Source: Bartonella sp. DGB1
Lineage (GTDB): Bacteria; Pseudomonadota; Alphaproteobacteria; Rhizobiales; Rhizobiaceae
Length of the DNA stretch: 64,000 nt
Direction of reading: 5' to 3'
NCBI RefSeq assembly: GCF_041345015.1
Contig: NZ_CP166769.1
Span: 372,001-436,000 of the forward strand
Shown: piece after piece, positions 8,385 through 11,133 of the stretch
How the letters are laid out: every line of letters begins with the position of its first letter
Position numbering within the stretch: position 1 is the first letter of the stretch
Notes under the pieces: generated by a model
Databases searched by the model: none
What the model was told of the DNA's origin: nothing
The model's input: the letters and a program-made list of their open reading frames with translations, nothing else
Made by a program: the position numbers and the translations under genes

Positions 8385-8699
8385 TTATTGGTGGTTGTGT
8401 TTATTATGGTTTGAATGAATGTTGGAATAAATAAAAGGCAAAACAGAAGGCTTTTCTTTCTTTTGTGCTAAGGATAAGTCGTAATTACTTTGCATTCCAA
8501 CCCATACATAAGCGGCACTTAATCCTGCTAATTCTAAACGAATTGCTAAATCAGAACTTATTCCAGCCTTACAGTTTAAAACACGTGATAAAGCTACTCT
8601 TGATATTCCTAATTGTTTAGCCGCATCAGTTACTGATATTCCTAGTTCTGTAAGAGAGTCTTTTAATAATTCGCCTGGATGGCAAGGATTGTACATCAT
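8385..8699 (-). CDS. higA: HigA-family antitoxin, XRE helix-turn-helix
   Basis: 104 residues opening MMYNPCHPGELLKDSLTELG, the signature start of HigA antitoxins, followed by an XRE helix-turn-helix (VTDAAKQLGISRVALSRVLN, about residues 23-42) and the typical AIRLELAGLSAAYVWVGMQSNYDL. It neutralises the toxin encoded 18 bases upstream and represses their shared promoter. The tail after residue 78 is long and ends histidine/asparagine-rich. Toxin-first order is the hallmark of higBA. Start at 8699 or the next ATG at 8696. Confidence 0.88.
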   Translation of the reverse strand: MMYNPCHPGELLKDSLTELGISVTDAAKQLGISRVALSRVLNCKAGISSDLAIRLELAGLSAAYVWVGMQSNYDLSLAQKKEKPSVLPFIYSNIHSNHNKHNHQ

Positions 8700-8717
8700 A
8701 GTATAATTTCCTTATAT

Positions 8718-8996
8718 TTAATGATAATCTTGATAATCAACTAGTTCAACATCTGTTCCAATAAAACGAAAAGTAATGCGCCAGTTTGCGTTTACACGTA
8801 CAGAGTAATAGCCTTTTAAATTTCCTTCTAAAGGGTGTAAGTGATACATAGGTAAATTAAAAGCTTGTGTATCTCTTGCAAGGTCTAATATAGATAAAAT
8901 TTGTCTTAATTTTTTAGCATGTGAGGCTTGTATACCCCTAGTTGACCCTGTTTCATAAAATATTTTCAAGCCCTTATGTTTAAAACTAATAATCAC
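8718..8996 (-). CDS. higB: HigB-family toxin (RelE-like mRNA interferase)
   Basis: 92 residues of the RelE/ParE superfamily, HigB branch: MIISFKHKGLKIFYETGS at the start, HAKKLRQILSILDLA helix, and the C-terminal LEGNLKGYYSVRVNANWRITFRF strand with the conserved WRITF motif. HigB toxins cleave mRNA at the ribosome. First gene of the pair, on the opposite strand to the surrounding phage late genes, so it is independently transcribed cargo that may stabilise the prophage or exclude other phages. Confidence 0.88.
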   Translation of the reverse strand: MIISFKHKGLKIFYETGSTRGIQASHAKKLRQILSILDLARDTQAFNLPMYHLHPLEGNLKGYYSVRVNANWRITFRFIGTDVELVDYQDYH

Positions 8997-9140: not shown

Positions 9141-9818
9141 ATGCGAAAAATAAGTAAATATGGTCTTTCTTGTATTAAACAATGGGAAGGTCTACGTTTA
9201 GAGGCTTATCGTGATGTTGCTGGTGTGTTAACTATAGGTTACGGTCATACAGGAAAAGATGTAAAGATAGGACAACAGATTAGCCGTAATCAAGCAGAAA
9301 ATCTTTTATTAAAGGATTTAGCTAGATTTGAAGAGGCTGTTTCAAAATATGTAAAAGTTGATTTAACAGATAATCAATTTGCTTGCTTAGTTTCTTTTGC
9401 TTTTAATATTGGTGTTACTGCTTTTAAAGGTTCTAAGTTATTAAAGAAGCTTAATAAGGGTAACTATGATGCTGTCCCGCAAGAGCTAATGCGTTGGACT
9501 TATAGCGGTGGTAAAATATCACAAGGATTAGTTAATCGTAGGTCAGCGGAGGTCGGTTTATGGGCTAAAGGTTCAAGAGTATCCTCTCAATGTGTAGATT
9601 GTGATAGAGACGAACAAGAGCAGATAAGCAAAACAAAAGAAGGTAAAGCCGTTGCAGTTACCTCTATAGGTGCTTTAGGTGCAACTTTTACCGAGATAGC
9701 TAGAGAAATACAGCCACAATCAGAAAATTTTACCATCTTACGTTATCTCTTTGCCATCCTAACCTTGCTTGGTATTGGATTAACTTTGTTCGCGGTAATT
9801 AAGCGGATGAGGGGGTAA
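9141..9818 (+). CDS. Phage endolysin (GH24 lysozyme) with C-terminal membrane segment
   Basis: 225 residues. Residues 1-145 are a T4-type/GH24 muramidase with the E-8-D-5-T catalytic triad (E16, D25, T31) in KQWEGLRLEAYRD and LTIGYGHTG; DNQFACLVSFAFNIG and GLVNRRSAEVGLW are also conserved. There is no N-terminal signal. After a charged linker with CVDC comes one membrane segment (about 199-219, YLFAILTLLGIGLTLFAVI) ending KRMRG. No separate holin is seen nearby, so the anchored tail may serve in export or membrane damage. The start is fixed by GGAG nine bases before the ATG. Confidence 0.87.
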   Translation: MRKISKYGLSCIKQWEGLRLEAYRDVAGVLTIGYGHTGKDVKIGQQISRNQAENLLLKDLARFEEAVSKYVKVDLTDNQFACLVSFAFNIGVTAFKGSKLLKKLNKGNYDAVPQELMRWTYSGGKISQGLVNRRSAEVGLWAKGSRVSSQCVDCDRDEQEQISKTKEGKAVAVTSIGALGATFTEIAREIQPQSENFTILRYLFAILTLLGIGLTLFAVIKRMRG

Positions 9819-9882
9819 GAGGTAATACTGAAATATATAGCAAATCTAAAAATAATCATTAGATAATAGATATCTAAGGTTA

Positions 9883-9989
9883 TTTCCAAAATTGGAAAAA
9901 ACTTAAAACTTAGGATTATATAGTTTTCGCCAATTCTGGCGAGAACCTCCGTAACTGATTATGTTTGCTTCCCAATTCTGGGAAGCAAA
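9883..9989. repeat. Three variable palindromes upstream of the Rha regulator
   Basis: Three hairpins share a 6-base A/T-rich core (AAAATT or AATTCT) but have different, self-complementary arms: 9883-9898 (TTTCCAA/TTGGAAA), 9923-9946 (GTTTTCGCCA/TGGCGAGAAC, one wobble) and 9964-9989 (TTTGCTTCCCA/TGGGAAGCAAA, perfect 11-base arms). The same pattern recurs inside the next gene. They could be repressor operators, RNA hairpins, or copies of a small palindromic element. Confidence 0.65.
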
Positions 9990-10174
9990 GGTAGAACAGC
10001 TAAAGAATCATCAACAGTAAATTACAAAAAACCATTTGACAAAGGCTAAAAAATATTATAGCCTGATTTTACAGTGCCTCAAAACACTAAATATCTAGCG
10101 GATAAATAACCGAAATTTGTTTACCGTTTCCAAATAATTCGACCTATTACTATGCTGTTCAAGCATGCGTTTTA

Positions 10175-10256
10175 TGTCGGGTGTAGTTATGTCATAAAAT
10201 ACCCGCAAGGGGAAAGCATAACGACGGACTAGATACCGTGTTTTGAGCACCCGACA
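10175..10256 (+). ncRNA. Structured RNA upstream of the Rha regulator, C4-like
   Basis: Nested pairing is visible. An outer stem TGTCGGGTG (10175-10183) pairs with CACCCGACA (10248-10256). A second stem GTTATG (186-191 of the same block, 10186-10191) pairs with CATAAC (10217-10222). An inner CCC-GCAA-GGG hairpin lies at 10202-10211. The right outer arm can instead pair downstream (ACACC 10254-10258 with GGTGT 10266-10270), giving two exclusive folds next to the regulator start. Phage P1/P7-type C4 antisense RNAs sit just upstream of the antirepressor gene and work by such pairing. The identification as C4 is inference. Confidence 0.5.
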
Positions 10257-10305
10257 CCATTATACGGTGTTTAATCAAAACTTGAATATATCTAGGAGAA
10301 AAACC

Positions 10306-11133
10306 ATGGACGGTTTAATCAATTATATAAATAACGCCCAAAAAGCTAAAAAGAACTCTCAATTAAAACAAGCGCAGAATAAAGATGTAGCAACACCAGT
10401 GTTAACTATGTCTAGTCGTGAGATTGCTAAATTGTGCGGGAAACAACACAAGCATGTTATGCGCGATATTAAGCAAATGTTAGAGGGTTTGTATACTATA
10501 AGTAACGAGCCCAAAATTGGGCTGGTTAAAAAAGACGACGCCCCCAAATTTGGGGCGGTTAAAAAAGAAGACGACCTCAAATCTGAGGCGGTTAAATTTG
10601 AAGGTACATATCTTGATAAAAAAGGCGAATCCCGCCCTTGCTATCACCTACCCAAACGCGAGTGTTTAATTCTAGTATCTGGTTATAGCACAACTCTAAG
10701 AGCAAAGATTGTTGACCGCTGGTTAGAATTAGAGCAACAACACGTTCCTCCAGCTAAACTAGCAATAGAAAATCAAGAAGAAATTATATATCAATTACCA
10801 GCTGATGAAAGAGAGCTACCAATAAGAATAAAAGACTGTATCAGAAAACATGCAGAACAATTATCTAATGTTTATCGTGTGGAAGCTGAAAAATATTTAA
10901 CCAAACGTACATATGGTAACGCTGTAGGTAGTAAGAGAGAAGTGACACATAGTAAAATCGATAAATGTTTAAAAAAGGTTTTATATCTTGATGTTGTAGA
11001 TACAGCTTTAGCACAAAACCGTTGGAGTCATCATAGTTTATTCTGTGCGTTAAGGTCTATGCTGGATAAAGATATTAAAGCTATAGAGAAAATACACCTT
11101 AGTGCAGACAAGCAACGAGGAAAAGCTATGTAG
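10306..11133 (+). CDS. Rha-family phage regulatory protein / antirepressor
   Basis: 275 residues from the ATG at 10306, chosen because AGGAG lies seven bases before it; upstream in-frame codons have no such site. Residues 34-145 are the pRha domain: TMSSREIAKLCGKQHKHVMRDI, then YLDKKGESRPCYHLPKREC and RAKIVDRWLELE. The C-terminal half is an ANT-like helical region with no clear domain. Rha proteins regulate phage lysogeny or interfere with host factors. Residues 68-98 are a tandem repeat (PKIGLVKKDDA, PKFGAVKKEDD, LKSEAVK) inserted in the middle of the pRha domain, each copy coded by a palindrome. Preceded by the C4-like RNA, as antirepressor genes often are. Confidence 0.8.
   Translation: MDGLINYINNAQKAKKNSQLKQAQNKDVATPVLTMSSREIAKLCGKQHKHVMRDIKQMLEGLYTISNEPKIGLVKKDDAPKFGAVKKEDDLKSEAVKFEGTYLDKKGESRPCYHLPKRECLILVSGYSTTLRAKIVDRWLELEQQHVPPAKLAIENQEEIIYQLPADERELPIRIKDCIRKHAEQLSNVYRVEAEKYLTKRTYGNAVGSKREVTHSKIDKCLKKVLYLDVVDTALAQNRWSHHSLFCALRSMLDKDIKAIEKIHLSADKQRGKAM
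10508..10588. repeat. Three palindromes within the Rha gene, tandem 33-36 bp units
   Basis: Palindromes at 10508-10523 (AGCCCAA/TTGGGCT), 10542-10555 (CCCCAAATTTGGGG, perfect) and 10575-10588 (CCTCA/TGAGG) repeat with the spacer GGTTAAAAAAGACGACG-like. Arms differ between copies but stay complementary within each copy. They keep the reading frame and encode the PKIG/PKFG/LKSE repeats. Confidence 0.7.

Follow-up and report, generated by a model that had tools for sequence, protein, structure and literature searches.

What maintains six palindromes around and inside a single antirepressor gene of Bartonella sp. DGB1? The window, which is the whole stretch of 64,000 nucleotides that was analysed, covers bases 372001-436000 of a 1.40-Mb genome of about 32% GC. 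In the window, a phage lysozyme gene (9141-9818) is followed by three palindromes in an intergenic region, then by a small RNA (10176-10263) and the Rha gene (10306-11133, plus strand). This gene encodes a Rha-family antirepressor of 275 amino acids with an N-terminal pRha winged helix-turn-helix (HTH) domain (Pfam PF09669, E=1.4e-18), which scored 67.7 bits against a cut-off of 29.9. The nearest Rha relatives found are in Bartonella, and the genome itself has seven Rha copies. No match was obtained in a blastn search of the locus against phage records. Between a tail gene and the lysozyme gene, a pair of small ORFs on the minus strand (8385-8996) resembles a HigB/HigA-type toxin-antitoxin module when the translations are read by eye.

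All six palindromes that had been claimed in the initial annotation are present as described and non-random, with three upstream of the gene and three inside it, and the latter are in-frame 33-nt tandem copies within the pRha domain. Very probably, each in-gene palindrome is a dyad operator in double-stranded DNA, recognised as a homodimer by the winged-HTH antirepressor that the same gene encodes, in Rha and likewise in AntA genes. Judging from sequence, we put the probability of this reading at roughly 0.9.

Symmetry and place of the palindromes in Rha genes

The initial annotation proposed a search for further copies in the genome, and such copies were found. A scan of 464 kb for the same design (a C-arm, an A/T core and a G-arm, with at least 4 paired bases and a GC count of at least 6) gave 14 palindromes, compared with 0, 2 and 0 in three Markov shuffles; 13 of the 14 lie within Rha or AntA antirepressor genes or adjoin such a gene. 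Each of the six other Rha copies of this genome has one palindrome at the in-gene site, with differing arms, such as GATCTCCTC AAATTT GAGGGCATC, GGTCTCCCC AAATTT GGGGGCACC, GATGCGTCC AAATTT GGACACATC and ACTGAGCTC AAAATT GAGCCCAGT. One of the six, L006 (812102-812634 of the genome), is a decayed rha pseudogene in which the symmetry is lost at position 6 from the centre, as expected if selection is relaxed.

The sequence CCCAAATTTGGG occurs at more than 70 places in 71 Bartonella genomes, and its reversed control at 2. The Bartonella loci fetched have the palindrome at the equivalent place with many arm types and in 0, 1 or 2 copies; the three copies in the window gene are the highest number among the loci seen. 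Gain and loss of copies among alleles, for which the initial annotation suggested looking, is thus evident. Most of the 18 Bartonella sites fetched outside full Rha matches are Rha remnants, and two are in inositol-monophosphatase-like genes. Scattered non-coding rha remnants that retain palindromes were seen in Bartonella genomes (L205-L210), and some of them may act as free-standing operators.

Related Rha genes on eighty IMG/VR phage contigs have entirely different stems, at an unchanged position in the gene. The dyad directly follows the recognition-helix codons in unrelated phages. Of 74 distinct phage Rha genes, 64 have a strong dyad at this site, and about 14% of the sampled Rha genes have none; synonymous shuffling left 15-17, and other parts of the genes gave 9-11. 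The constant dyad thus goes beyond the demands of the protein, which agrees with the earlier proposal that the symmetry is under selection. With shuffles that preserve protein and codon usage, the folding z-profile shows one sharp dip, exactly at the site, with means of -1.9 in viral, -2.1 in Bartonella and -3.8 in the genome's own genes.

A protein motif alone was considered and rejected as the explanation, since it accounts for the AAA TTT core and leaves the synonymous bases of the arms unexplained. PKFG is always encoded as CCC..GGG and SKFG nearly always as TCC..GGA, though the third base of the Gly codon is free. The compensatory arm changes noted earlier are therefore real and reach beyond the protein motif, and the arms covary among homologues. 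The core, which had been described as fixed, is partly determined by the protein, with Lys-Phe encoded as AAA TTT, and positions 8-9 from the centre are mostly unpaired.

Coupling of recognition-helix residues and arm bases

When the genes were sorted by arm sequence, the recognition helix was sorted too. Here, residue 1 is T1 of TMSSREIAELxxKRHDHVMRDI, and base positions are counted outward from the dyad centre on the left arm. In the window gene, the predicted DNA-reading residues K-Q-H-K-H-V-M-R (domain residues 13-20) are encoded by 10441-10464 (plus strand); the prediction comes from covariation with the operator bases and from an AlphaFold2 model of the paralogue L002, and the specificity residues are Q14, K16, H17 and R20. 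In that model, whose domain pLDDT is about 90, helices at 48-54 and 59-77 and strands at 83-87 and 93-99 indicate a winged-HTH fold. Domain residue 1 corresponds to model residue 45, and residues 14-20 correspond to model residues 58-64 at the start of helix 3, and the predicted operator lies between the codons of helix 3 and those of the first wing strand. A Foldseek search of the PDB gave no significant match, the best being weak ones to MarR-type winged-HTH proteins, and no solved Rha structure was found.

The counts come from 126 distinct genes; several of these counts rest on related sequences, for which the tree contrasts described below correct. Arg at residue 20 goes with C at position 4 in 109 of 111 cases and Ala with G in 14 of 15. 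His at residue 17 goes with C at position 5 (70/73) and Asn with T (49/50). Asp at residue 16 goes with C at position 7 (66/67), Lys, Arg or Gln mostly with G, and Ala, Thr or Ser mostly with A. Position 6 is mostly C, and T is found there chiefly with Gln or Glu at residue 14. In 53 viral genes, the mutual information of the three couplings is 0.86, 1.08 and 1.13 bits, and the largest values in 200 permutations were 0.46, 0.60 and 0.62; each coupling exceeds every permutation, and the peaks fall at exactly the residue-base pairs 20/4, 17/5 and 16/7. The outer positions 10-12 are symmetric and variable, and they showed no coupling to residues 1-29 clearly above permutation.

Relatedness does not explain these couplings. 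On a tree built without the recognition helix, residue 17 changed about 34 times. Among the nearest pairs on this tree, the base at position 5 differs in 50 of 52 pairs if residue 17 differs and in 4 of 61 if it is the same. The corresponding numbers are 42 of 47 against 5 of 62 for residue 16 and position 7, and 15 of 15 against 3 of 62 for residue 20 and position 4.

Five phages outside the derivation set also fit at positions 4, 5 and 7. With half-sites written from position 7 to 4, PLPE has KQHKDVLRD with GCGC (its pairing of Asp17 with G rests on one earlier case, L232), LPPA33 has KKHKNVLRD with GCTC, C119 and GJ44 have KRHDHV.RD with CCCC, and Shelanagig has KRHDNVLAD with CCTG. In these five whole phage genomes no further convincing copy of the site was found outside the gene. 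An rha-wide regulon was considered and rejected, as the near-copy search of the same genomes gave one doubtful match, in the Pseudomonas phage LPPA33. This near copy of the in-gene rha site, ATGGCTCAGAATTGAGCCTG (L292:23332-23351), is about 8.6 kb off inside another gene and might be a second site for Rha. In Escherichia phage C119, two or three palindromes fall within the first 250 nt of the antirepressor gene (L293:18720-19451), which is possibly another multi-operator gene. We found no account of the residue-base code in the open-licence literature searched, and an earlier description may exist elsewhere.

Tandem sites of the window gene and the AntA family

The helix of the window Rha, KQHKHVMRD, predicts GCCC. 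Predicted operator 1 (10504-10527; AACGAGCCC AAAATT GGGCTGGTT) has this half-site and would be the site of the gene's own protein (QHKH..R). Predicted operator 2 (10537-10560; GACGCCCCC AAATTT GGGGCGGTT) has CCCC, the code of RHDH proteins such as L002 (KRHDHV), and predicted operator 3 (10570-10593; GACGACCTC AAATCT GAGGCGGTT) has CCTC, the code of the RHDN paralogues L003 and L004 (KRHDNV). A degenerate fourth dyad (10585-10608), around AAATTT at 10594-10599, takes the place of the paralogues' single operator in the alignment. All six intact Rha paralogues of this genome fit the code.

There are two views of the stacked operators, to which we give similar odds: they may serve mutual action of prophages, or they may be remnants of earlier changes of specificity. 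The latter view refines the operator reading in that the extra sites would be leftovers and not working sites for the Rha proteins of other prophages, and we consider the chance of this to be about even. All six sampled Bartonella two-operator genes with clear dyads encode QHKH proteins and have a GCCC site and another one, which is CCCC in five. Such a pattern would be expected of a QHKH type that evolved from RHDH by operator duplication followed by a change of the helix. However, positions 4-7 have retained full symmetry in the extra sites of the window gene, unlike in the decayed pseudogene copy L006, and each of the two foreign codes corresponds to Rha paralogues present in this genome.

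The three upstream palindromes probably are AntA-type operators in short fragments of AntA genes, and they are of three types, namely TTCC, CGCC and TTCCC. The first predicted one (9879-9902; GTTATTTCCAAAATTGGAAAAAAC), with a symmetric core at about 9883-9898, is 22/24 identical to the operators of the AntA genes L325-L327 (E 0.036), and this weak 24-nt match carries its assignment to the TTCC type. The second, GTTTTCGCCAATTCTGGCGAGAAC (9923-9946), is of the CGCC type and matches intact AntA proteins of this genome; the fragment around it (9914-9950) reads DYIVFANSGEN and is 36/37 identical to the genome's intact antA genes. The third, TTTGCTTCCCAATTCTGGGAAGCAAA (9964-9989), is in a fragment (9957-9999) that reads DYVCFPILGSKGR, and the intact antA genes L297 and L307 have an equal peptide and half-site. 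Rho-independent terminators were rejected as an explanation of the upstream palindromes, since the run of T lies on the side opposite to that expected of a terminator and the sites are within AntA-gene fragments.

In the intact antA genes of this genome, DYIVFANSGEN or DFVCSPILGSKG is encoded across equivalent palindromes. A strong dyad just after the HTH was found in 64 of 79 AntA genes (Pfam AntA, PF08346), compared with 5-11 when the genes were shuffled synonymously and 0-5 when other regions were taken. The site has a constant place and the family has a code of its own: residue 18 is coupled to position 6 (N with G, 17/17; D with C, 19/20; A with T, 7/7), D at residue 15 to C at position 7 (40/41), and residue 14 to position 5 (K/R with C, 54/56; S/T with T, 10/10). 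Because of these dyads and this code, the in-gene operator design appears to be common to two antirepressor families, Rha and AntA.

The Roi protein of phage HK022 has a weak match to Pfam PF09669. In 1996, Clerget and Boccard reportedly found a binding site for Roi inside the roi gene, close to an IHF site. At the equivalent codons of HK022 roi and its relatives (L296:4656-5381 and L377-L456) there is a shorter dyad whose centre measures 3 nt; it is ctgcATTgcag in HK022 and cctcaAATtgagg with RHDN in a relative, and it fits the Rha code at position 5. The 3-nt centre implies that spacing differs between subfamilies, and the short dyad in HK022 roi agrees with the reported binding of Roi within its gene.

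Leader RNA, alternative explanations and known systems

The small RNA (10176-10263, plus strand) is situated between the upstream and the in-gene palindromes. It matches Rfam RF02221 (sRNA-Xcc1) with 56.7 bits (gathering score 53, E 6e-9) and is also found in 5 paralogues. RF01695 (C4) gave no match at E up to 5, the best match being RF02221, so the RNA was not assigned to the C4 family. It is nonetheless a candidate C4-like antisense RNA. Its loop heptamer CTAGATA (10229-10235) is the exact reverse complement of TATCTAG (10289-10295), the predicted target, which overlaps the rha Shine-Dalgarno sequence (GGAG), and of a duplicate of the target at 10092-10098, which precedes the small RNA, all on the plus strand. 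The duplicate is present in 57 of 64 leaders. Loop and Shine-Dalgarno heptamers are exactly complementary in 59 of the 64 leaders with 23 different heptamers, compared with 4 of 1408 in a mismatched control, and the variable loop is thus coupled to its target across alleles as in a C4-like mechanism. In Bartonella leaders a second variable 8-mer (e.g. GTTTTCTA/TAGAAAAC in L083) was seen with copies on both sides. In phage P1, the C4 RNA acts by the same variable-loop antisense logic on the Shine-Dalgarno region of the ant antirepressor, with duplicated targets (PMC5320573). In Xanthomonas integrons, sRNA-Xcc1 is found upstream of symE, where its mechanism is conjectural and no target of the Shine-Dalgarno type is given (PMC12444791, PMC2996969). 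Our results suggest that the sRNA-Xcc1 family, at least in these prophages, acts as a C4-like antisense RNA on the adjacent gene. The in-gene palindrome was rejected as a target of the leader RNA, because Bartonella rha genes without the leader have the palindrome too; leader RNA and palindromes are therefore independent layers.

Of the hairpin in DNA or RNA for control that the initial annotation envisaged, control remains the most likely function and the RNA form has become unlikely. Stem-loops in rha and antA mRNA that control translation or mRNA decay would account for the strong local folding beyond synonymous shuffles, and a real structured RNA of the sRNA-Xcc1 type is present in the same leader. 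However, of 77 distinct sites chosen on overall pairing, 84-99% are paired at positions 3-7 and 10-12 from the centre and about 35% at positions 8-9, an unpaired step that is kept; the pattern is alike without that selection. Mismatches of G.T and A.C at paired positions are both rare (9 and 11; 19 and 13 in a looser count). This equal rarity reveals no preference for G.U and no tolerance of it in excess of A.C, and it fits DNA dyad symmetry, unlike RNA pairing. In addition, the arm bases track the residues of the recognition helix, which a constraint on pairing alone does not predict. We consider RNA stem-loops improbable. Templated quasipalindrome correction, which exists in bacteria, might hold the arms complementary during replication without selection, and the arms do change in concert between nearly identical flanks. 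It is still less probable, since the mismatches at positions 8-9 ought to vanish under it yet persist, since it does not predict that an arm changes only when the helix residue changes (as at residue 17), and since such palindromes are not kept elsewhere in the 464 kb scanned.

The initial annotation also raised a mobile palindromic element, and an insertion of the Rickettsia/Wolbachia (RPE/WPE) or REP type is now the least credible account of all. Rickettsia palindromic elements are sequence families of about 100-150 bp found in many genes. In-frame insertion, a copy number of 0 to 3 and the variable length of the region would suit such an element, but the arms share no sequence and no element sequence is conserved, the palindrome has one fixed position in two protein families, and no spread to other genes was seen in 464 kb. 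Almost all copies are found in antirepressor genes or in what is left of such genes, and the scattered Bartonella sites are mostly rha remnants.

If the palindromes are dyad operators, Rha would bind inside its own reading frame and thereby limit or time its own transcription by roadblock or looping. With the operator placed after the recognition-helix codons and ahead of those for the wing strand, reader and site would move and recombine as a unit, and altering the specificity would require linked changes within about 150 bp. In the window gene the site would have multiplied to three copies in tandem, of which one has the gene's own code and two have paralogue codes, and the extra operators may let the antirepressors of other prophages do likewise on rha. 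This leads to a wider proposal, which we hold tentatively and at a little less than even odds: phage antirepressor genes (Rha, AntA and probably others) would be self-addressed modules that hold, in their coding sequence, the operator read by their own recognition helix, and the tandem operators of foreign specificity in and upstream of rha would wire co-resident prophages into a cross-regulatory network that can be read from sequence by means of a simple residue-base code.

Two very large and poorly understood families of phage regulators, so far annotated only as Rha or antirepressor, thus acquire a predicted binding site and a readable DNA-recognition code, which was derived from sequence alone. 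A reader and its site in one 150-bp block of coding DNA would be a compact route to changed repressor specificity. The stacked operators suggest that co-resident prophages may regulate each other's antirepressors.

Several known systems resemble parts of this arrangement. In the C4 system of P1 and P7 (RF01695), too, the antirepressor gene is preceded by a short structured RNA whose variable loop is complementary to the Shine-Dalgarno region, with duplicated targets; the candidate antisense RNA here, in contrast, matches sRNA-Xcc1 (RF02221) and forms a layer separate from the palindromes. Rickettsia palindromic elements are likewise in-frame palindromes within genes, whereas the sites here are short putative operators at a fixed place with no common sequence. 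As at the autogenous operators of phage repressors of the lambda CI/Cro type, an HTH homodimer would read a dyad and specificity co-evolves, but the predicted operator here lies among the codons for that very HTH domain and not in a promoter. HK022 Roi, of the same pRha family, reportedly has its binding site in its own coding sequence, and its gene has a short dyad at the equivalent place. It is a single known case, with IHF, whereas the predicted site described here is family-wide, follows a residue-base code, extends to two families and occurs in tandem copies of differing specificity.
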